A DNA stretch of 52,189 nucleotides, from contig NZ_JANUCS010000015.1 in the NCBI RefSeq assembly GCF_024808815.1, positions 1 to 52,189 on the forward strand, given 5' to 3'. Below are positions 1,550-51,743 of the stretch, piece after piece; position 1 is the stretch's first letter; each line of letters opens with the position of its first letter. Both the position numbers and the translations under genes were made by a program. The stretch comes from Methanosalsum natronophilum. Lineage in GTDB: Archaea; Halobacteriota; Methanosarcinia; Methanosarcinales; Methanosarcinaceae. The notes below the pieces were generated by a model, which had not been told where the DNA came from, made no database searches, and saw only the letters and a program-made list of their open reading frames with translations.

Positions 1550-2104
1550 TTATTCGCTTGCAATGGATGATGCAACCTGTGCTGGTCTTTCTGGATGTGA
1601 ATCGTTATTTAATGGTGATTGCCCATAATAACCGATAGCCATCTCCTCTTCCTTTGATACAAGCTTACTTGGGATAGTGACTCTTTTCCCGTTAATTGCT
1701 ATATGGCCATGAGTGATGAATTGCCTTGCTTGTTTCATAGTCATAGCAAGTCCTAGCCTATGTACTTGGGTCTGTAGCCTTCTCTCAAGAATAGCATCAG
1801 TGTCAAGTGCAAGAATATCATCAATATTAGAATCTGGTTTTAATATAGAATATCTAATCAATCTATTAAGAATTTGATCAGCTTCATTTCTTAAATGGCC
1901 TGTTAGTTCAGCTTCAGCTGATTCTGCTAGTAATCTACGTGCATCTGCCCTATACATCCTAAGAATACTTTGTACTTTCCACAGTTCTTTTCTGTTACGT
2001 AGCCCATACCTTGTGATAAGTTCAACTTCAGTGGCCATTCTGGCAGCTTGCCATGGGTGTTTTGGTGTATCAAAACTCTTTTTCTTTTTACCTGGATATA
2101 CCAT
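1550..2104 (-). CDS. rps4: 30S ribosomal protein uS4
   Basis: Primary 16S rRNA-binding protein that starts 30S assembly. The 184-aa archaeal form opens with [18 protein letters not shown] and carries an S4 RNA-binding domain in the middle ([20 protein letters not shown], then [18 protein letters not shown] at about residues 115-150). The C-terminus is short and acidic (ending ASSIASE), as usual in archaea. It lies 12 bp after rps13. Its Shine-Dalgarno lies within the short intergenic gap (plus-strand ttcacc). Confidence 0.97.
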
Positions 2105-2116
2105 CTTTGTTCACCT

Positions 2117-2563
2117 TTATTTCTTCTTACTCACACCAATAGTACTTCCGCCTCTACCTGTAGACTTCGTTCTCTGGCCTCTGACCTTTAGACCACGTTC
2201 ATGGCGTATACCACGGTACGCTCGGATCTTTTTAAGTGTATTAAGATCCTCTCTTATAGTCAAGATGATATCTTGGCCTAGAAGATGTTTATCATCGCCT
2301 GTCAGTGGATCTTTTCTTCTGTTTAGCATCCATGCAGGAACATTCTTTTCAAAATCATTGATGTTCTCGTTCAATTTTTGAACATCTTCGTCTGACAAGT
2401 AACCTATCTTTTCAGTAGGGTCAACATCTGCTCTTTCGGTCAAAATCCTTGCAGTACGTCTTCCTATGCCACGAATTCCAGTAAGTGCATACTCTACTGG
2501 CTGATCACCTTTAAGATCAGTGTTCATTATACGCACTAAATGTCTCATTTCTTCTTCTGCCAT
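2117..2563 (-). CDS. rps13: 30S ribosomal protein uS13
   Basis: Protein of the 30S head that contacts the 50S subunit and P-site tRNA. The 148-aa archaeal form contains the helix-two-turn-helix ([12 protein letters not shown] near residue 29) and the basic tail [20 protein letters not shown]. The C-terminus ends in SKKK. It is the first gene of the operon, with a strong Shine-Dalgarno (GGAGG) 6-7 bases upstream and a leader of roughly 140 bases that holds hairpins. Confidence 0.97.
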
Positions 2564-2740
2564 TTATTTTCCTCCTTAAGGACAATCTTAAAGTACTCAA
2601 GTACTGATTATCCCGTAGCCCTGATACAAAAACCTCGTATCAGCACAGCCAATTAAGGCTCAAGATAAATGAATTAGTAAATTCAATCTTCTAATCTTAA
2701 TTGCTCGGCAGTATATAATATAAGTGGTATATAACTTTAA
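2564..2740 (-). promoter_or_regulatory. Promoter and structured leader of the rps13 operon
   Basis: On the minus strand a TATA-like element lies at 2726-2733 (TTATATAC), with a second TATA-like stretch at 2711-2720. Downstream in the putative leader, CTGATAC and GTATCAG form a 7-bp stem with a 9-base loop at 2621-2643. A second small stem (AGTACT, two-base loop, AGTACT) is at 2591-2604. The Shine-Dalgarno follows. Archaeal ribosomal operons can be controlled at leader structures by one of their products, but no known S4 or S13 target motif was recognised. Bases 2741-2878 are AT-rich and show nothing clear. Confidence 0.5.
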
Positions 2741-2878
2741 TTGTAGTTACAGTATCTCCGAATGAAATACAGCTTTTTGATAGTTTCAACTAAATAAAGC
2801 GATTCAAAAAAGTTTTTGTTTCTTTATCTTCCAGGGTTACTATCTTAATCCATCTAATCTAAATAAAAAATACATTAA

Positions 2879-4246
2879 TTAAAATATTTTAAAGGCGCAT
2901 GGTTGCATAAACTCCATCATACCTATGCGGTAAAGTTCTCTACCAACTCCACTTTTTTTGACACCACCAAATGGTACCCGGGGATCTGATGCTACTGGAC
3001 TGTTTATTCCAAAAATACCTGCATCTATTGAACTTGCAACTGATAAAGCATTTCTTTTGTCTCTACCCCATATACTTGCACCTAACCCAAATTCTGTACT
3101 GTTAGCAATTTTCACAGCTTCATCCTGGGTTTTAAATGGTACAATAGGTGCAACTGGACCAAATACTTCTTCTTGCAACACAGGTGACTTCGAATCTAAT
3201 CCATTGAGGACGGTGGGGTTGTAGTAATAACCTTCTCTTTTATCTAAACCACCTTCAATTAAAATATTAGCCCCCATCTTTATTGTGCGTTCAACTTGAT
3301 CAATTAAAATGTTGAGTTGTGTTTCATTAGCCAGTGGGCCAATATCTGTTTGTTTGTCAAAAGGATGACCAACTCTAAGCTCTTTCACATAGTTCAAAAA
3401 ATAAGAAATGAACTCTTCCTCAACTGTTTCATCTACTAATATCCTTTTAGCCGCAATACAGCTCTGTCCATTGTTCTGGAACCTACTTTTCACGGCAGCT
3501 TTTGCTGCATCCTCAATATCTGCATCTTTTAGTACAATGAAAGGATCACTACCACCTAATTCTAACACAAATTTCTTTATGTTCTTACCTGCCATTTGAG
3601 CTACCATTGAACCTGCATTCAAACTGCCCGTGAGTGTAACAGCGTTTATTTCAGGCCTTGATATTAAAGACGAAGCAGTTGGACCATCTATTAAGAGTGT
3701 TTGGTATATGCCTTCAGGAAAGCCAGCCTCCACAAATATACGCTCAAGTTCTATCGCACATAATGGTACATTACTAGCATGTTTTAAAAGAACTGTGTTT
3801 CCACCTGCAACTGCAGGTACACCAAACCTTAGAGCTTGCCAGAATGGAAAATTCCAAGGCATTATACTCAATACAGTTCCCATAGGACGGTACTCTATAA
3901 AAGATTCTGATGCGTCGGTATTCAACTTTTCAACCTTGAGAAAAGATTCCGTCTTCTCTGCAAAATAATCACATGCCCATGCACACTTTTCTATTTCTGC
4001 AAGAGATTCCTTTATAGGTTTACCCATTTCTTTAGTAATTAAGGTAGCAAGCTCATTTTCTCTTCTTCTAATGATCCTTGCTAATTCTTCAAGTAAAAAT
4101 GTTCTCTCAACAACATTTTCATCACTCCAATCATTAAAAGCAGCCGTTGATTTAACTACTTTCTCATTTATATCCTCATCTGAATGGTATGGAATCTCTT
4201 CGTTCAACATACCAGTTGCAGGATCAATCGACCTTAATTTAGACAT
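2879..4246 (-). CDS. NAD(P)-dependent aldehyde dehydrogenase (succinate-semialdehyde dehydrogenase-like)
   Basis: Oxidises an aldehyde to the carboxylic acid with NAD(P)+. At 455 aa it has the short SSADH-type architecture. The signature residues are visible: Asn132 in MPWNFPF, Glu229 in LELGGSDP, the catalytic Cys263 in NNGQSCIAAKR, and EEVFGPVAP near residue 360. It begins at an ATG with GAGGT 9 bases upstream. The closest named relatives are succinate-semialdehyde dehydrogenases and lactaldehyde dehydrogenases; the substrate cannot be told from sequence. It is a single gene, divergent from the small frame at 4328. Confidence 0.92.
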   Translation of the reverse strand: MSKLRSIDPATGMLNEEIPYHSDEDINEKVVKSTAAFNDWSDENVVERTFLLEELARIIRRRENELATLITKEMGKPIKESLAEIEKCAWACDYFAEKTESFLKVEKLNTDASESFIEYRPMGTVLSIMPWNFPFWQALRFGVPAVAGGNTVLLKHASNVPLCAIELERIFVEAGFPEGIYQTLLIDGPTASSLISRPEINAVTLTGSLNAGSMVAQMAGKNIKKFVLELGGSDPFIVLKDADIEDAAKAAVKSRFQNNGQSCIAAKRILVDETVEEEFISYFLNYVKELRVGHPFDKQTDIGPLANETQLNILIDQVERTIKMGANILIEGGLDKREGYYYNPTVLNGLDSKSPVLQEEVFGPVAPIVPFKTQDEAVKIANSTEFGLGASIWGRDKRNALSVASSIDAGIFGINSPVASDPRVPFGGVKKSGVGRELYRIGMMEFMQPCAFKIF

Positions 4247-30097: not shown

Positions 30098-30886
30098 TTA
30101 AGGGTATAATCCAACAATCATATTAACCCCATAAGCAGAAGGTGTATAAAATCTTGCAGAGACATCTGGCCCATATTCTGAAGAGATAACAATACTCATA
30201 CGCGTCCTTGGGTTTAATTTAAGATCCGAACTTTTCAATTCAAGATCATCATAAGAATACAATGATGTATATCCAGAAGCATCCCTAGATACGGTTGCTA
30301 CATATAATGAGATTAAGTCACCTTTGCTCATTAAAGGATCTGATTGCGAGAATGAACCATCTTCATCTCTGTGTGGATTTGCAGTGAAGAATAATTTTGA
30401 ATTAGGTCCATCATTAGTAGTTCCATTGAGTAATAGTTCTAAGTTAGTTGAATGGTCAGTATCAAATCCTTCCATTGTGGTACCAAAAATTCTTTCATTA
30501 CCAGCATAGACTAAAGTATTTGTTCGACTACCATCAGAAACTGTGATTATTGTCTGGCTTATATCAATTTCACTGGTACCTACATGTAAGCCCGCGTTTA
30601 TCTTTATCATATCAATTGTATCTGATGGCCCACCTTGACCCCCAGTATCATTTGCACGGTACCCTTCAATGTTGCGAATCAAAATATTTGAAGATACTTC
30701 TTGGGTAGCTTGTCTGCCTGTTTGAGCTGCTTGTTCCTGCAAAATACCGGATGTTTGAATCATTACAGCTGCAGCTATGGAAGCAATTAAAATCATTGCT
30801 ATAAAAATTATTAATGTCCCAATACCTATTTGAGCATCAGTATTTTTCTTAAACCCTAAGCTACATTTTCTGGTCAAACCATCCAT
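30098..30886 (-). CDS. arlB: Archaellin (archaellum filament protein)
   Basis: Filament subunit. The class III signal peptide is basic ([18 protein letters not shown]), processed before [13 protein letters not shown] by an ArlK/PibD-type peptidase, and followed by the hydrophobic assembly helix. The C-terminus has the archaellin end [17 protein letters not shown]. The ATG at 30884-30886 was chosen to give a normal signal peptide; the open frame continues to 30991 with unrelated sequence. This is the most diverged of the short archaellins here and has no clear terminator after it, so it may be joined with the two secreted-protein genes downstream. Confidence 0.92.
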
Positions 30887-31061
30887 CCTAGTAAAAATAT
30901 ATGATTTATATTGGGTTGGATAACATATAAAGTTTATGAATAGCCTATAGCTATGAAGTCTTATAGACTGAGAATAAAAGAAAATATTCAATTTAAAAAT
31001 AAATGAAACAAAAATAGAATTTTTACTTTAAGTAAATAGAACAAAATAAAAATAGAGAGAA

Positions 31062-31080
31062 GTTCTCAATGAATGAGAAC
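31062..31080 (-). terminator. Terminator after archaellin gene 31083-31841
   Basis: A 7-bp stem (GTTCTCA/TGAGAAC, 5-base loop) lies just after the stop codon and is followed on the minus strand by a T-rich run. Confidence 0.65.
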
Positions 31081-31082
31081 TC

Positions 31083-31841
31083 TTATGGATATAGCTTGAC
31101 TATATCAGTTACACCATAAGTAGATGGGGTAACAAATGTTGCTTGTGAGATAGCTCCGGCTTCAGGTGTCATTACAATACCAACTTCTGTACGTGGATCG
31201 ATTGTCAATCCGGTGTTAGTTAAAGTACCATCACTTGAGTCTGCTCCATCAATTTCAATTGAATAGCCTTCTCCTGATCCTTCTTCTGATGCACTTGCAA
31301 TATAAAGATTGACAAGATCACCAGTATTCATAACAGGATTTTCCTGATTAAAGGATTCATCTTCATCACGAATATCATTAGCAGCAAATTCTGTTGTGGC
31401 TGCATCATCATCTGTCATTATTCTTTCTAGATTATCTGTCCAACTGTCATCATCTTTAACATGTTCTTCATCAATATAAGTCAATGTATTTGTTACACTA
31501 CCATCAGTAATGGTTACAACCAATTGATTGAGATCGACTGGTGAACTACCTGCTTGAAGACCTAGTTGTAATCTAAGTAGATCAACAGTATCGGATAAAC
31601 CATCATCAGTATGTGATGCTCTTACACCTTCGATACTTTTAATATCAATATTCGATGATACTTCTTGTGTTGCTTCTGAACCTGTCTGTTGTGCTCTCTG
31701 TTGTAACACTCCTGAAGTCTGGATAAGTACTGATGCAGCGACTGCTGCTACTAAGACCATAGCGATAAATATAATCAGAGTACCAATACCCACCTGACCT
31801 TTATTGTTCTTTCTAAAATTCAATTTTCTGTTTGCTTTCAT
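31083..31841 (-). CDS. arlB: Archaellin
   Basis: A 252-aa filament protein. The short basic leader MKANRKLNFRKNNKG is cut before [20 protein letters not shown]. The assembly helix continues to [21 protein letters not shown]. The C-terminal conserved motif is FVTPSTYGVTDIVKLYP. The central domain is variable and acidic. The ATG at 31839-31841 has GGAG 7 bases upstream; the frame is open to 31928 but the extension is not conserved. It is very close to the archaellin at 31957 (recent duplication). Confidence 0.95.
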   Translation of the reverse strand: MKANRKLNFRKNNKGQVGIGTLIIFIAMVLVAAVAASVLIQTSGVLQQRAQQTGSEATQEVSSNIDIKSIEGVRASHTDDGLSDTVDLLRLQLGLQAGSSPVDLNQLVVTITDGSVTNTLTYIDEEHVKDDDSWTDNLERIMTDDDAATTEFAANDIRDEDESFNQENPVMNTGDLVNLYIASASEEGSGEGYSIEIDGADSSDGTLTNTGLTIDPRTEVGIVMTPEAGAISQATFVTPSTYGVTDIVKLYP

Positions 31842-31922
31842 AAAAAAACTCCATATTCTATTTGATATAAAGAAAATTATCAGGTTTGAATTATATATTT
31901 TTGGTATATGGGATAAAAAAAG

Positions 31923-31945
31923 ATTCATATTATTAAAATATGAAT
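31923..31945 (-). terminator. Terminator after archaellin gene 31957-32709
   Basis: A 9-bp stem (ATTCATATT/AATATGAAT, 5-base loop) 11 bases after the stop codon, followed on the minus strand by a run of seven T. This archaellin therefore probably ends its own transcript. Confidence 0.7.
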
Positions 31946-31956
31946 CAAAACTTTGT

Positions 31957-32709
31957 TTATGGATATAGACTTACTATATCAGTTACACCATATGTAGATG
32001 GTGTAATAAAAGATGCTTGTGAAATAGCTCCTGCTTCAGGTGTCATTACAATACCAACTTCTGTACGTGGGTCTAATGTTAAACCAGATTCACTGTTTTC
32101 AGTAGGGAAATCCTCTCCATCAATATTTATTTGATGGTTTTCAGTATTTGCTTCTTCGGATGCTGTTGATATGTACATATTAACGAGATCACCAGTGTTC
32201 ATAACAGGATTTTCCTGACTGAAAGATTCATCTTCATCACGTATTTCTCTTACTGCAAAAAGGTCTGTAGCACCATCTGTGGTTTGTAGTCTTTCTAAAT
32301 TTCCATTTTCTCCACCAAATTCACTTGCTGGATCATTACCATCAGTATATGTCAGTGTGTTTGTACTACTTCCATCAGTAATTGTTACAACTAGTTGATT
32401 AAGATCTACTGGTGAACTGCCTGATTGGAGACCAAGTTGTAATCTTAACATATCTACAGTGTTGGTTAATTCATCACCGTTTGCTGCTCTGATACCTTCA
32501 ATATTTTTAATATCAATATTTGATGATACTTCCTGGGTTGCTTCCGAACCTGTCTGTTGTGCTCTTTGTTGTAGAACACCAGAGGTTTGAATCAATACAG
32601 CTGCAGCAACCGCTGCTACAAGAACCATTGCAATGAAGATAATAAGTGTCCCAATACCTACCTGGGCACTAGTATCTTCACTGAACCGTACATTCTTATT
32701 TGCTTTCAT
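31957..32709 (-). CDS. arlB: Archaellin
   Basis: A 250-aa filament protein. The leader MKANKNVRFSEDTSA is cut before [20 protein letters not shown]. The variable acidic middle (about 90-200) differs from the neighbour at 31083 while both ends are nearly identical. It ends FITPSTYGVTDIVSLYP. The upstream region carries a TATA run and the conserved archaellin promoter element at 32776-32806, so this gene has its own promoter. The Shine-Dalgarno is GGAAG. Confidence 0.95.
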   Translation of the reverse strand: MKANKNVRFSEDTSAQVGIGTLIIFIAMVLVAAVAAAVLIQTSGVLQQRAQQTGSEATQEVSSNIDIKNIEGIRAANGDELTNTVDMLRLQLGLQSGSSPVDLNQLVVTITDGSSTNTLTYTDGNDPASEFGGENGNLERLQTTDGATDLFAVREIRDEDESFSQENPVMNTGDLVNMYISTASEEANTENHQINIDGEDFPTENSESGLTLDPRTEVGIVMTPEAGAISQASFITPSTYGVTDIVSLYP

Positions 32710-32772
32710 AGTACAATCTTCCTATAATTTTATACAATAATAAATCTTATGATACATACACTTATTCTTTAA

Positions 32773-32958
32773 TCATATATATATACTTTGGTTTGATTTA
32801 TTTAACGAGTTTCTTATGGAAATGCAATGATCATGTTTAACTAAAGTATTTATTCCATAAGTCGATGGTGTAAAAAGTGGAGCCTCCTTAGAACATAAAG
32901 CTTCTGGGGGCTTAGGGACATTCTCTTCAATGAATCTTACCTTCTTACTTGTTCTCAT
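32773..32958 (-). pseudogene. Archaellin with its centre deleted
   Basis: The N-terminus MRTSKKVRFIEENV equals the archaellin leader (compare MKANKNVRFSEDTS). It runs straight into PPEALCSKEAPLFTPSTYG, which equals the archaellin C-terminus (TPEAGAISQASFITPSTYG). The signal cleavage site, the assembly helix and the whole central domain (about 200 codons) are lost. The normal stop is gone, so the frame reads on into the next promoter for about 17 residues. It follows the archaellin at 32996 by 37 bp on the same transcript and cannot make a filament subunit. Confidence 0.85.
32776..32806 (-). promoter_or_regulatory. Archaellin promoter: TATA run and conserved GTTTGA element
   Basis: The plus strand shows an ATATATATATA run (32776-32785) followed by TTTGGTTTGATTTATTTAAC (32787-32806). 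On the minus strand this is GTTAAATAAATCAAACC directly before the TATA box of the archaellin at 32709. Near-identical elements lie at 33811-33830 and 46402-46421. The element partly overlaps the out-of-context tail of the deleted-archaellin frame. Confidence 0.75.
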
Positions 32959-32995
32959 AGAATCTTACCGTACAGTATAAAAATAATAGAACTTT

Positions 32996-33739
32996 TCAAG
33001 GATAGAGTCTTGTTACAGGATCCACTTCATAACGTGAAGGTGTAATAAAGCTTATGGTTGAAGGTGTACCTGTTTCATATGCAAATATGATATCCACCGG
33101 TGTTCTTGTATCCAGCTGCAAGTTAGAATTTTTAACCGTTGATAAGGCATCATCATAATTAGTTAAATTAATACCGGAATCAGAGCTTGAGGTGCCAATA
33201 TAGATATATATTATATCACCTGAACTTATAACTGGATCTTTCAACTGAAATGAACCATCATCATCACGGATAGGATTAGCAACAAAATATGTTGTGATAT
33301 TTTCCCTGTTTTTTAACAGATACTCCAAGTTTTTAGTAAAATTATCTTCATGTGAGTCATTGATATATTCTAAAGTGTTTGTAGTACTACCATCTGAAAC
33401 TGTTAGAATTACCTGCCCCAAATCAAGTGAAGAACTACCAGGTCTAAGACTAGCTTGAATCTTTAACAAATCATATGTTTTGGAATAACCATCTTCATTT
33501 TCTACATCTAAATTGCCTCGTATACCATCAATGTGCATTATATTCAAATTAGAAGATACTTCTTGGGTAACTTCGGAACCCGTTTGTTGTGCTCTTTGTT
33601 GTAATACACCGGATGTTTGAATTAGGACAGCTGCAGCAACCGCTGCAACTAGAACCATAGCAATAAATACGATAAGTGTCCCAATACCAATCTGGGCACT
33701 AGTATCTTCATTGAAACGCAGTTTATTATTTGCTTTCAT
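32996..33739 (-). CDS. arlB: Archaellin
   Basis: A 247-aa filament protein with leader MKANNKLRFNEDTSA, cleavage before [20 protein letters not shown], and C-terminus FITPSRYEVDPVTRLYP. The C-terminal TPS(T)YG motif is altered to TPSRYE, unlike its paralogues. The central domain has several N-x-S/T sequons (NDS, NFT, NIT, NLT) that may be glycosylated. GGAGAT lies 7-8 bases before the ATG. Its promoter element is at 33801-33830. It is the first gene of the short-archaellin block. Confidence 0.94.
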   Translation of the reverse strand: MKANNKLRFNEDTSAQIGIGTLIVFIAMVLVAAVAAAVLIQTSGVLQQRAQQTGSEVTQEVSSNLNIMHIDGIRGNLDVENEDGYSKTYDLLKIQASLRPGSSSLDLGQVILTVSDGSTTNTLEYINDSHEDNFTKNLEYLLKNRENITTYFVANPIRDDDGSFQLKDPVISSGDIIYIYIGTSSSDSGINLTNYDDALSTVKNSNLQLDTRTPVDIIFAYETGTPSTISFITPSRYEVDPVTRLYP

Positions 33740-45245: not shown

Positions 45246-46325
45246 TTAGGACATTAGTAGAATATACCTATTATCAAAATATGCACCCGGTGTATTTATT
45301 TCAAATGGTACAATAGAACCTGCTTCTGGTCTTATCTGAAATGATAACTGTGATCTTGGTTCAATGCCTTCATATCCAGATTCTTGTGTTTGGAATACAC
45401 GTCTCATATCAATCGTGATTTCCATTATATCACCAGTCCTTAATACAGGTTGGTTTGCAACAAAGTTACTACTATCTCGAATCCTAATAGGGCTTACTGA
45501 AAAATAATTGCCATTAGGTACATGAATCGTTTCACCGGCTTCCAAGTGATTATATCTAACATTAGTCATCCTTGAGCCATCTGACAAATAGATAATTAAT
45601 TGTGAGAGATCAATATCCTGACTACCAGGTCCAAGTGAAACTGATACACGCAGTGTTGTTATATGACCGTGTTGTGTAGAACCTCGAGGATTTATTTCAC
45701 CTGATTTAAAATTTTCATTTCCATTATCCTCAAGTTTATCTCTATCATATGCAATTCTGAAATTAGATTCTTTTAAAATTCTAGCCGAAAATTGTTCACC
45801 CGGTTTTATTCTATAGCCAATTTCACCATCCGAATCTTCATAATAAATTGTTTTATCCTCAAAATATTCAAAGTAATCTTCAAACCAATTGTCAAGGTTA
45901 TCTGAAATTGCTGAGTTCTTATCAAACGCAATAAAAACATCGTTTTCTCTGGGGTCTTGATCCTGATCAGGTACTTCACGTTTGGAAATCCATTCAACCT
46001 TTGAGCTTGCTGGAATACTAATATTATCTAAAGTATCTCCATCTTTATTTACTAATTTAATGTAATCATTATCTTCTTTAATGTATATAGTTGTATATGA
46101 AGCTCTTTCGCCCTCTACTCTATCAACTCTCAGATTTGATGCTACTTCTCTAGTAGTCTCTTGACCCGTTTGAGCTGCAGTTTGCTGTAAGACTCCTGAC
46201 GTTTTTATCAATAAAGCTGATGCAACTGCTGCTACCAGCACCATTGATATGAAAATGATAAGCGTCCCAATCCCAATCTGTGCACGCTCATCTTTTTTAA
46301 ATTGGTGTCTCTGATTTGCTTTCAT
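45246..46325 (-). CDS. arlB: Long archaellin
   Basis: A 359-aa archaellin, about 110 aa longer than the other four. The leader [15 protein letters not shown] is cut before [25 protein letters not shown], and the assembly helix is intact. The extra length lies near the start of the outer domain (about residues 75-200), is Asp/Glu-rich, and precedes the usual strands ([21 protein letters not shown] matches the other archaellins). The C-terminus [19 protein letters not shown] differs from the usual TPSTYG...LYP. GGAGAT lies 8-9 bases upstream, and the conserved promoter element is at 46402-46421. It could be a minor, hook- or cap-type filament protein. Confidence 0.92.
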
Positions 46326-47796: not shown

Positions 47797-48023
47797 ATAG
47801 CACCTGTAAACTCATTTTAACTTTTTTTATTTGTTTATTAAAATATTTAGCTAAAAATATGTAAGATATAACTTTACTGCATCTTTTTTTTTTAATAAAA
47901 ACCTTTATTGTACCTAAAAATTGAATTAAAAGAGACTTGACTATGTCCTATAGTATTTAGTTAACTTTATGTAATGCATAATAACATCAAATGTTCATAT
48001 CTATAATATTTGGAGAAAGAACA

Positions 48024-48752
48024 ATGTTAGGCATATCATCATTTTCCTATAGTAACAAGACACTTTCTGAAGCACTTGAAGTAATTGAGAATAAAGTTGC
48101 TTGTGCTGAAATATTTTGTGAAGGAATGCATGATCTTTTTAAGTATACAGAAATACCTTTATCTTATAATTTGAAATATGCAGTGCATGCACCATGTAGT
48201 GATCTAAACATAGCAAGTATCAGAGAGCGAATTCGTAAAGCTAGCATCGGTCTCGTAGAAGATGTCGCTTATCTCTGCCAACAAATTGGTGCAGAAGTGA
48301 TGGTATTGCATCCAGGTTATTTCAGTTATTCTTGCGACCTTCCAGCTGTCATGAAAGCACTTGAAACATCACTCGATGAAATGGAATATATTAGAGAAGA
48401 GACTGGTGTGCTGATATGTTTAGAAAATATGCCAGCTGATTGGAATTGTTTTGTGTTCCAGAATCCAGGTATGGACTTAAAGAATCATGGTTTCACATTA
48501 GATATTGGACATGCTAATACTACAAATGCTTTAAATGATTTTTTAAAACAAACAATATCACATTTACATATCCATGATAATAATGGTACCTCTGATGAAC
48601 ATTTACCCGTTGGAGATGGAAATATCGACTTTAATTGCATGAGACATAAACTAAAGTCAAATGGGTGTATGAAAATTTTGGAGCATCGGACTGGGTTTGA
48701 TGTTGATAAAAGTCTGGAGACTATAAACACTAAATACAAGTACTTAAAGTGA
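48024..48752 (+). CDS. AP endonuclease family 2 / xylose isomerase-like TIM barrel protein
   Basis: A 242-aa TIM-barrel protein with metal-binding motifs spread over the strands: AEIFCE, YAVHAPCSDLN, VMVLHPGYFSYS, ICLENMP, LDIGHAN, HLHIHDNNGTSDEHLPVGDGNIDF and ILEHRTG. These fit the endonuclease IV/sugar isomerase superfamily. It is smaller than typical Nfo and may be an isomerase rather than a DNA repair enzyme. The ATG at 48024 has GGAG upstream; the 47991 frame is longer but unsupported. Confidence 0.85.
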   Translation: MLGISSFSYSNKTLSEALEVIENKVACAEIFCEGMHDLFKYTEIPLSYNLKYAVHAPCSDLNIASIRERIRKASIGLVEDVAYLCQQIGAEVMVLHPGYFSYSCDLPAVMKALETSLDEMEYIREETGVLICLENMPADWNCFVFQNPGMDLKNHGFTLDIGHANTTNALNDFLKQTISHLHIHDNNGTSDEHLPVGDGNIDFNCMRHKLKSNGCMKILEHRTGFDVDKSLETINTKYKYLK

Positions 48753-48766
48753 AATATGAACTAACT

Positions 48767-49318
48767 TTAAACAAAAAATGATACACCTATCAATATAAAG
48801 AGTATCCCAGCTACTTTGGAGACTAGATCCTTTGGAATCCTATCCATGATAAATTGACCCACAAAGATGGCTATCAAGCTCATTATGAAAAGAGCTAATA
48901 TCACTCCAATAAAAACAAGATAAGGGTCATATTGTGTTGCAAATACAGCAGTAGCTAATTGAGTCTTATCACCCATTTCTGCAACTAAAATCAGTCCAAA
49001 TGCTGTAAGAAATGGACTTTTCATTTCTGGGTTCACATTAGCTTCTTCGTCCTCTCTACTAACTAACATAAACAAACCGAAAAGAATAAACAAGAGTCCT
49101 GCACCAAAACTCACATATTCCATTGGAACTACCGTTGAAATATAATTACCTAAGAGAATAGCTAACCCCGTAGTAATTATAAAGGCTAACATAACCCCCA
49201 CTAAAAGAGGTAAATATTTTTTTGTTTTAGTTGAAAGTACTAGGATAGCTAACTGGGTTTTATCACCTAGTTCTGCAAGTCCAACCACTACAAAAGGCAC
49301 AATGATATCTAATAACAC
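48767..49318 (-). CDS. TMEM165/GDT1 family divalent-cation transporter
   Basis: A 183-aa membrane protein with two inverted copies of the E-x-G-D-K-T motif: Glu16/Asp19 in GLAELGDKTQ and Glu114/Asp117 in LVAEMGDKTQ. Six TM segments in two halves are linked by an acidic loop (REDEEANVNP). Members export Mn2+ or Ca2+ in exchange for protons. It is convergent with the TIM barrel gene and next to mgtE on the same strand. Confidence 0.93.
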   Translation of the reverse strand: MLLDIIVPFVVVGLAELGDKTQLAILVLSTKTKKYLPLLVGVMLAFIITTGLAILLGNYISTVVPMEYVSFGAGLLFILFGLFMLVSREDEEANVNPEMKSPFLTAFGLILVAEMGDKTQLATAVFATQYDPYLVFIGVILALFIMSLIAIFVGQFIMDRIPKDLVSKVAGILFILIGVSFFV

Positions 49319-49393: not shown

Positions 49394-50416
49394 TTATACC
49401 AAGCCTGGCAAGAGTATGGCAGCAAGTCCAAAGTATATCAAAAGTGCTGTTACATCCTTTATTGTAGTTATCATTGGATCCGAGACTGCAGCAGGATCGT
49501 ATCCAGCCTTATGTGCAATCCATGGTACACCAAAACCAATAGTTGAAGCAATGATAGAGACTAAAACTAAGGTTATAAATACAAGTAATGCCAGTTCAAT
49601 CATACCCTGCCAGACATATGCAATTGCAGCTGCAATCGAGCCAATAATAATTCCAATCGCTAAACCCATCCTTCCTTCTTCTAGGAAATGTCGAATAGCA
49701 TTTTTATCACCTATATGACCCACTGCAAGCCCTCGTACAAATATTGTGGATGCCTGTGTTCCAACATTTCCACCCATATCCATTATAACGGGAAGGAAAA
49801 ATGCAAGTGCTATAACCGCTTGAAGAGATTCTTCATAACCTTCAATGACAAGACCTGCTATTAGACCACCAGCAAGTGCAACAAGCAACCATGGTAAACG
49901 TATCCTAAGTATATTGAAAGCTGAAGATGTTAATATTGTATGACTCCTTGATACTTCTTCATCTGAGAATACCATACCTGCACTTTTGAAAATGTCCTCT
50001 GAGGCTTCTTCTTCCACAACATCCAACATATCTTCTGATCTCATCACACCTACAAGTTTCATATCAGCACTAGTTACAGGCACTGCTCTAAAAGGTATAT
50101 CTGACATCTTTCTTGCAGCAATCTCTACATCTTCATTTTCTTCTAATGTTGTCAGATCAGTTTTCATGATCTTAGATATTGGTTTATCTCCTTTTGCATT
50201 CAAGAGATCGCGTAAGGATACTACACCAACTAATTGTCCAAATTCATTTAGTACATATACATAATAAATACTGGTCTCATCCGATTCTGGCTGATATCTT
50301 CTGAACTGGTTAATAGTATCTTCTACTAAAGTTTCTTTTGTAACTGAAAAATATACTTCATCCATTACATCTCTTACAATATTTGCGTGGATGTGTTCGT
50401 CACCATTCTCATACAT
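49394..50416 (-). CDS. mgtE: MgtE-family Mg2+ transporter with CBS domains
   Basis: A 340-aa transporter. Two CBS domains (about 16-140, with VRDVMDEVYFSVTKETLVEDTI and ISKIMKTDLTTLEENEDVEIAARKM) sense Mg2+. The five-TM MgtE channel domain (about 170-340) contains the LAFFLPVIMDMGGNVGTQAST signature and a DPAAVSDPMITTIKDVTALLIYF end. The usual N-terminal helical superhelix domain is absent, so the protein is shorter than bacterial MgtE (about 450 aa). The ATG at 50414-50416 has GGAGG 7-8 bases upstream. The gene is controlled by an M-box. Confidence 0.95.
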   Translation of the reverse strand: MYENGDEHIHANIVRDVMDEVYFSVTKETLVEDTINQFRRYQPESDETSIYYVYVLNEFGQLVGVVSLRDLLNAKGDKPISKIMKTDLTTLEENEDVEIAARKMSDIPFRAVPVTSADMKLVGVMRSEDMLDVVEEEASEDIFKSAGMVFSDEEVSRSHTILTSSAFNILRIRLPWLLVALAGGLIAGLVIEGYEESLQAVIALAFFLPVIMDMGGNVGTQASTIFVRGLAVGHIGDKNAIRHFLEEGRMGLAIGIIIGSIAAAIAYVWQGMIELALLVFITLVLVSIIASTIGFGVPWIAHKAGYDPAAVSDPMITTIKDVTALLIYFGLAAILLPGLV

Positions 50417-50423
50417 ACAAATT

Positions 50424-50477
50424 CCTCCTTTCCTCACATTTTTTTAGAAACAGAAACCTTGGTGGAAGAGGAAAGTG
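50424..50477 (-). promoter_or_regulatory. Candidate expression platform: anti-Shine-Dalgarno hairpin
   Basis: In the mRNA, CTTTCCTC (50468-50475) is exactly complementary to GAGGAAAG (50428-50435), which abuts and overlaps the mgtE Shine-Dalgarno region. Between M-box and this stem, another 8-bp stem with a TTTG loop (AAGCAAAC/GTTTGTTT, about 50488-50510) can form. This arrangement suggests control of translation initiation. Confidence 0.5.
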
Positions 50478-50540
50478 TATTTTTTGGCAAACAAACCAAA
50501 GTTTGCTTGAACTTAGAAAAACTTAAAGTGAATCTACTAA

Positions 50541-50712
50541 ACACTCTCCTCGTTTAGTTTTAGCACTATCGAACGTAGAATAGATCTTTTATCTATTCAG
50601 CTGGTTGATAAAGCCTTAATCCGACAATACCTGTTTTACTCATTGGCATCTCTCGATGTTTTTGAGCACCAGCTTATGTTTCGATAGGAGCCTCACCCAA
50701 CAAGGTGTCTTG
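50541..50712 (-). promoter_or_regulatory. M-box (ykoK leader) Mg2+ riboswitch upstream of mgtE
   Basis: The minus strand carries the conserved M-box core in order: GGGTGAGGCTCCT (50686-50698), ATCGAGAGATGCCAATG (50641-50657), AAACAGGTATTGTCGG just after, a peripheral arm with CAGCTGAATAGAT and its partner, then AGTGCTAAA (50559-50567). The closing helix P1 pairs CCTTGTT (50699-50705) with AACGAGG (50548-50554). These match the bacterial M-box consensus that binds several Mg2+ ions. A TATA element at about 50745-50753 would start the RNA at about 50720. The region 50438-50795 otherwise holds only the expression platform. Confidence 0.93.
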
Positions 50713-50795
50713 TCCCTTTCTGAATAGGTGTAGTGAAATAATATTATTTAAAGGTTCTGCAGATGTTCAAAATTAATGCCTCACAATTATTCAAA

Positions 50796-51743
50796 TCAAA
50801 CATACCACATAATTAAACCTAGTATATATCCGATGTATAGTATGATCAATAGTATCCCCATCCAGCGCTCCAATCTTTTCAGCACAAGAGCAGGTATTAC
50901 GGCCACACATATCAGGACAAGCATGGCAGGTATGTCATAATAGAGAGATTGAGCCAATATTGGTATATCTCTAAAAAAAGGTGCTACTCCGAATATTAGA
51001 GTAAGACCCATCAAATTTGCGCCAATTATGTTTCCAATTGAAAGATCGTGATGTTTCTTAACAACAGCAGCAAGTGCAGTAACTAACTCAGGAGCAGACG
51101 TACCAAATGCTACAAGAGTTAAAGCAATTATCATTTCAGGAACGCCTATGATCTCAGCTAGTTCCACACCGCTATATACCAGCAGTCTACTACCAATTAT
51201 AACAAAAATAGCACCTAAAACAAAATATATCAATTCTTTTCGAATATGCACCAGTTTATTTCTATGAGTTGATGGATTTTCATCATTCCAAATATTTGTC
51301 TGATACTTGTAATTATAATAAATGAAACCTATAAACAAAAATAATAAAAACAATCCATTGAAAACAGTAATTACACCATTATATGAAAACAGAATTAGCA
51401 TTAATACAGCAATAACCATGAAAAGCGATTTCATGTAAAATTTATTCTCGATAGGAGATCTAGATCGTACTGCAATAACAAAACCCAATATTAGGCCGGT
51501 ATTGCATATTACAGACCCCAGTGCATTACCTACTGTCATTTCAGTATGACCTAAGTATGCAGCTATTGTAGATACAAAAAATTCTGGTGCAACTGTTGCA
51601 AAACTTACTATAGTAGCCCCAATTATTATTTTAGGTATCCCAAGCTTGTTAGATATGGATATTGCTGATTCAATGAACCAATCTGCACCTTTCAAAACAA
51701 TTAAAATACTCAATAAAAATAGTAATACAATGATAGCATCCAT
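50796..51743 (-). CDS. CaCA-family Na+/Ca2+ exchanger (YrbG type)
   Basis: A 315-aa membrane antiporter with the two alpha repeats: ATIVSFATVAPEFFVSTIAAYLGHTEMTVGNALGSVICNTGLILG and LVAFGTSAPELVTALAAVVKKHHDLSIGNIIGANLMGLTLIFG. About ten TM segments. Glu and Asn/Asp residues in these repeats bind Na+ and Ca2+. It is upstream of the mgtE riboswitch on the same strand, with its own ATG region. Confidence 0.94.
   Translation of the reverse strand: MDAIIVLLFLLSILIVLKGADWFIESAISISNKLGIPKIIIGATIVSFATVAPEFFVSTIAAYLGHTEMTVGNALGSVICNTGLILGFVIAVRSRSPIENKFYMKSLFMVIAVLMLILFSYNGVITVFNGLFLLFLFIGFIYYNYKYQTNIWNDENPSTHRNKLVHIRKELIYFVLGAIFVIIGSRLLVYSGVELAEIIGVPEMIIALTLVAFGTSAPELVTALAAVVKKHHDLSIGNIIGANLMGLTLIFGVAPFFRDIPILAQSLYYDIPAMLVLICVAVIPALVLKRLERWMGILLIILYIGYILGLIMWYV

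Follow-up and report, generated by a model that had tools for sequence, protein, structure and literature searches.

The M-box or ykoK leader (RF00380) is familiar from bacterial mRNA leaders such as that of mgtE in Bacillus subtilis, and to our knowledge the class is essentially bacterial. Enterobacterial mgtA, also a Mg2+ transporter gene, has a leader that responds to Mg2+, but this sensor is another RNA with another mechanism. Among archaea, the fluoride class was the only natural riboswitch determined experimentally as of 2021 (PMC8241225), and few others had even been predicted by 2024 (PMC11549558). The fluoride (crcB) riboswitch of Thermococcus kodakarensis is, like the element described here, a natural archaeal ion sensor and presumed to be translational, but it has a different aptamer class, ligand and target (PMC8241225). 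Within the Methanosarcinaceae, a tetracycline riboswitch built into Methanosarcina acetivorans controls expression by sequestration of the ribosome-binding site in a stem (PMC8241225); this device is artificial and its aptamer unrelated. The element analysed here lies in a 52,189-nucleotide contig of Methanosalsum natronophilum (NZ_JANUCS010000015.1), the whole of which is referred to as the window. With the Bacillus subtilis type it shares a complete aptamer with all helices, the location in an mgtE leader and the expected Mg2+-off logic; it differs from it in the archaeal host, the TATA promoter, the lack of a terminator hairpin, the short MgtE as target and a proposed expression platform that covers the SD sequence and the AUG. 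We consider it probable that the mgtE mRNA leader holds a genuine Mg2+ riboswitch of the M-box class, which turns translation off when Mg2+ is plentiful. The features of the locus, all on the minus strand, are the following:

50745-50752 (-), TATA-like box TTTAAATA of the mgtE leader promoter, recognized by sequence
50538-50711 (-), complete M-box Mg2+ riboswitch aptamer, from RF00380 and covariation in eight archaeal copies
50701-50708 (-), 5' arm of the P1 helix, ACACCTTG, from the Rfam structure line
50541-50551 (-), 3' arm of the P1 helix, GAGGAGAGTGT, resembling the SD region, from the Rfam structure line; 11 bp with the switch strand
50487-50506 (-), linker hairpin GCAAAC...GTTTGC, from folding; terminator scans empty
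50466-50480 (-), putative switch strand ATACACTTTCCTCTT, a conserved island in five leaders with alternative helices
50448-50460 (-), third conserved leader island AAGGTTTCTGTTT, capable of weak pairing with the P1 5' arm
50415-50429 (-), ribosome-binding region under the proposed OFF helix, from the SD sequence to the first AUG bases; the switch strand can pair with 13 of its 15 positions
49394-50416 (-), mgtE, short form, CBS-CBS-MgtE transmembrane domain, 340 aa, from Pfam and NCBIfam

The covariance model RF00380 matched positions 50711-50538 over its complete length (model positions 1-169) with 145.6 bits and an E-value of 4.3e-33 (cmscan, Rfam), far above the gathering score of 44 bits, and the M-box that a preliminary description had recognized from its core motifs is thus a full member of the family. 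When the window was compared with all Rfam families, no other family exceeded its threshold and Mg_sensor, the enterobacterial mgtA leader, had no match. The description had further stated that P1 pairs perfectly; the Rfam alignment revealed one non-standard C.A pair in the window copy, which recurs in seven of the eight archaeal copies. Across these eight aptamers, 89.9% of the cells of the Rfam structure were paired, and 14 pairs had changes on both sides, compared with a mean of 4.2 in shuffled alignments; none of 500 shuffles reached 14, and slid structures used as a control gave 1 to 5 such pairs. Because of this excess of double changes the aptamer is seen as maintained as a structure, which supports the earlier view that its structure is kept up in the archaeon.

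The placement of the M-box between a TATA box and mgtE was likewise borne out. The TATA-like box lies 34-41 bases upstream of the aptamer, just outside the region covered by the preliminary description, so that transcription would start about 10 bases before the aptamer. The SD sequence GGAGG is located at 50428-50424 (-), the ATG of mgtE at 50416 and the stop at 49394. As described before, the product is a short MgtE: its 340 aa contain two CBS domains (PF00571) and PF01769, while Pfam and NCBIfam detected no MgtE_N domain, a domain that was found in the products of the genes behind two other archaeal M-boxes (L006 and L008). The missing MgtE_N domain assigns the protein to a short MgtE subfamily. 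It scored 251 bits against TIGR00400 (cutoff 232.75), aligned to positions 136-447 of the 450-position model, and its best match by sequence among solved structures was MgtE 2yvx. The gene lies between two antiporter genes, one for a GDT1-family cation antiporter and one for a calcium/sodium antiporter (window 48767-49318 and 50796-51743), and together they form a small divalent-cation transport gene cluster. Near mgtE, a protein with weak similarity to CbiR, below the cutoff, is encoded at 47991-48752; a similar gene lies near the mgtE of L003, the M-box locus of another Methanosalsum genome. A gene for CbiZ (adenosylcobinamide amidohydrolase) is located upstream of the second M-box of the host genome, L002, with a similar gene at the same place in L003. 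The CbiZ and CbiR-like genes are possibly cobamide-remodelling neighbours of the M-box-mgtE loci.

The same pair of M-box and mgtE was present in close relatives, and the host genome itself contains a second M-box (L002, 123.5 bits) before another short mgtE. The second copy and the relatives scored 119-137 bits, and all preceded Mg2+ transporter genes. Beyond these, the element is rare: five of 238 genomes of the host class had a match, four of them above the cutoff, and a sample of the phylum yielded matches in 4 of 393 genomes, hence about 1-2% of the Halobacteriota genomes searched. No M-box was obtained in the 243 genomes searched for the phylum of a Thermoplasmata genome. For comparison, M-boxes occurred in 25 of 61 Bacillota genomes, in 7 of 119 genomes of the phylum of an actinobacterium and in 6 of 118 of the phylum of Desulfonatronospira. 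In Natroniella acetigena (G595, contig 41; L111, L114, L116), one mgtE is preceded by three M-boxes in tandem, with a spacing of about 250 bases. Six copies of the short mgtE were detected in the host class, distributed over only 4 of its 238 genomes; five of the copies have an M-box before them. The sixth (L155; G149, 506559-507557), in the single-contig relative that also contains L003, has no M-box; its product is 61% identical to that of the window, and its short leader carries an SD-like GGGGG of its own. Two distant Halobacteriota genomes harbour full-score M-boxes, one before a full-length mgtE (L008) and one before an mgtA-type P-ATPase gene (L007, in G463). At codon 83 of the latter gene (1774-3180), counted from the ATG after the SD sequence, there is an in-frame stop; the gene is either broken or affected by a sequence error. 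The genes behind archaeal M-boxes thus comprise at least three types of Mg2+ transporter: short mgtE, full-length mgtE and mgtA.

The expression platform separates the archaeal from the bacterial elements. A terminator-like hairpin followed the aptamer in 44 of 49 Bacillota leaders, 5 of 9 actinobacterial and 4 of 6 desulfobacterial leaders, whereas none was found after the eight archaeal aptamers, including that of the window; shuffled leaders gave 5% for Bacillota and 0% for the archaea. The linker hairpin of the window is not followed by a T run and is therefore not a terminator of the bacterial type. As the terminator scans of the window leader were empty, an intrinsic terminator was rejected.

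The Methanosarcinaceae leaders are otherwise unalignable, the conserved islands being UACACUUUCCU, AAGGUYUCUGUCUU and the SD/start region. The conserved downstream strand ACACUUUCCU has two alternative potential partners, the P1 3' arm and the SD/AUG region. With the P1 3' arm GAGGAGAGUGU it forms 11 bp in the window, a helix matched in strength by 0.4% of shuffles for the window and by 4-6% for L002-L004; with the SD/AUG region it forms 13 bp in the window and 17 bp in L003 and L004. Compared with shuffles, the SD helix had values of 0.006-0.08 in L001 and L003-L005 and did not go beyond shuffles in L002, L006 and L007. In L005 a matching change was observed on both strands, AUAAAAAU with AUUUUUAU: the sequence before the AUG is UUUUUAU versus UUUGUAU, and the opposing strand AUAAAAA versus AUACA. 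L007 and L008 differ in sequence but have a similar layout, in which a pyrimidine strand can contact the P1 3' arm as well as the SD sequence. Since the P1 3' arm resembles the SD region, both are expected to compete for one strand. Folding of the window leader with and without the P1 arm gave only modest changes in predicted accessibility, from 0.05 to 0.16 for the SD sequence and from 0.35 to 0.58 for the AUG; outside the window leader, little or no change was predicted. Between switch strand and SD sequence, a third island (AAGGTYTCTGTCTT, window 50460-50448) is conserved and has its counterpart at this position in L002-L005. It is similar to the complement of the P1 5' arm, but its duplex energies did not go beyond shuffles, and a pairing between the two is no more than suggestive.

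From these helices a translational mechanism appears likely. At high Mg2+ the aptamer would fold and P1 would close, which would leave the downstream switch strand free to fold onto the SD sequence and the AUG; initiation would be blocked and no MgtE made. At low Mg2+, P1 would open and its 3' arm would take the switch strand, the SD sequence would be free, the ribosome could enter and MgtE would be synthesized. The Mg2+-off direction is assumed by analogy, because of the behaviour of the bacterial M-box class and the role of MgtE in import. The aptamer itself belongs to the known family RF00380, and the proposed SD/AUG expression platform is the new part. We found no report of an archaeal M-box in the open-access papers searched; an earlier listing elsewhere is possible, and a first discovery is not claimed.

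A control of transcription of archaeal type has to be weighed against the translational switch. Archaeal transcription terminates at U-rich tracts without hairpins, and the U/C-rich switch strand, pyrimidine-rich in all leaders, could serve as a U-tract at which the termination machinery, e.g., FttA/aCPSF1, ends transcription while P1 is closed, and which the P1 3' arm hides once P1 is open. Hairpin-free termination at U-rich tracts is established for archaea, but the U runs here are short and broken by C, and the complementarity to the SD/AUG region with its matching change in L005 would be left unexplained. We regard this reading as doubtful and retain the translational switch. It is very unlikely that the leader is left over from a transfer and now without function or nearly neutral. 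Archaeal copies can decay: L006, with the gene of a full-length MgtE as target, scored 36.9 bits, and the only further copy in the class of L007, L118 (G730, 2616856-2616686), scored 32.8 bits. L118 has a kinase-like and an isocitrate-dehydrogenase-like gene as neighbours and no transporter gene after it; it is a riboswitch fossil resembling L007. The window copy, however, scored 145.6 bits, its aptamer shows compensatory changes, and the same genome holds a second intact copy, in addition to intact orthologues in relatives.

The preliminary description had proposed that riboswitch and mgtE were transferred together from bacteria. The frequency of M-boxes in Bacillota and their rarity in archaea fit a joint move from a bacterium and retention as one unit, but the transporter does not. 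In the MgtE tree, the short MgtE falls into an all-archaeal clade with haloarchaea nearest, although the placement of deeper branches is less sure after a short tree search, and the genomes of these nearest haloarchaea contain no M-box. Of the 30 genomes with relatives of the short MgtE, mostly haloarchaea, only the two methanogens had one. Where an M-box precedes a bacterial mgtE in this sample, the gene product is full-length MgtE of about 455 aa, and the short form was restricted to archaea within this set. The full-length MgtE of L006 belongs to a different part of the tree, so that the same aptamer lineage precedes a different MgtE there. The joint bacterial transfer was rejected on the basis of the MgtE tree and the domain make-up, and we hold it to be highly improbable.

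To follow the history of the aptamer, a tree was computed for 72 M-boxes, those of the archaea together with those of three bacterial groups. With the P1 columns included, the eight archaeal M-boxes were on one side of a branch with a support of 98/94. Without the P1 columns, the six Methanosarcinaceae M-boxes, including L006, stayed together (99/95) and the placement of L007 and L008 was not fixed; the grouping of all eight appeared in 12% of the bootstrap trees, with an AU p of 0.5. In these alignments a common origin of the six Methanosarcinaceae M-boxes is firm, while one origin for all eight is supported only with the P1 columns. Because the aptamer of L006 groups with the Methanosarcinaceae and its MgtE elsewhere, aptamer and transporter genes have separate histories. 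Probably the aptamer is ultimately bacterial, but separate in origin from this mgtE. A possible course, put forward tentatively, is that a single M-box lineage entered the Halobacteriota once, lost the bacterial terminator, gained the platform covering SD sequence and AUG, which would suit gene expression in archaea, travelled as a loosely attached leader between Mg2+ transporter genes of three distant or unrelated kinds and decayed in some lineages.

Two genomes of the genus carry M-boxes; one is named Methanosalsum sp. CSSed162cmB_328 in the MgtE search, and the other, with L003, consists of one contig of 2,138,444 bases. The window contig bears five archaellin-like genes at 30098-33739 and 45246-46325, the call at 45246-46325 being checked against NCBIfam and the others made by the N-terminal motif; these genes mark the contig as archaeal. 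Bacterial contamination of the assembly, suggested by the essentially bacterial nature of the class as generally known, was rejected and has a negligible probability, since independent relatives, among them the single-contig genome and independent assemblies, carry the same M-box-mgtE arrangement, the archaellin genes share the contig and the MgtE is of archaeal type.

The host is one of the soda-lake methanogens of the Methanosalsum group, and the named relatives of its MgtE came, as read from their names, mostly from soda-lake samples or haloalkaliphiles. If the riboswitch is confirmed, it would extend the archaeal riboswitches by a metal sensor whose crystal structure is known and whose target is clear, and its genus has cultivated members. 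The terminator platform in bacteria versus the apparent ribosome-binding-site platform in archaea would make the crossing of the domain boundary by a riboswitch testable. Magnesium is scarce in carbonate-rich soda lakes, and a Mg2+-sensing leader of mgtE would fit this ecology.
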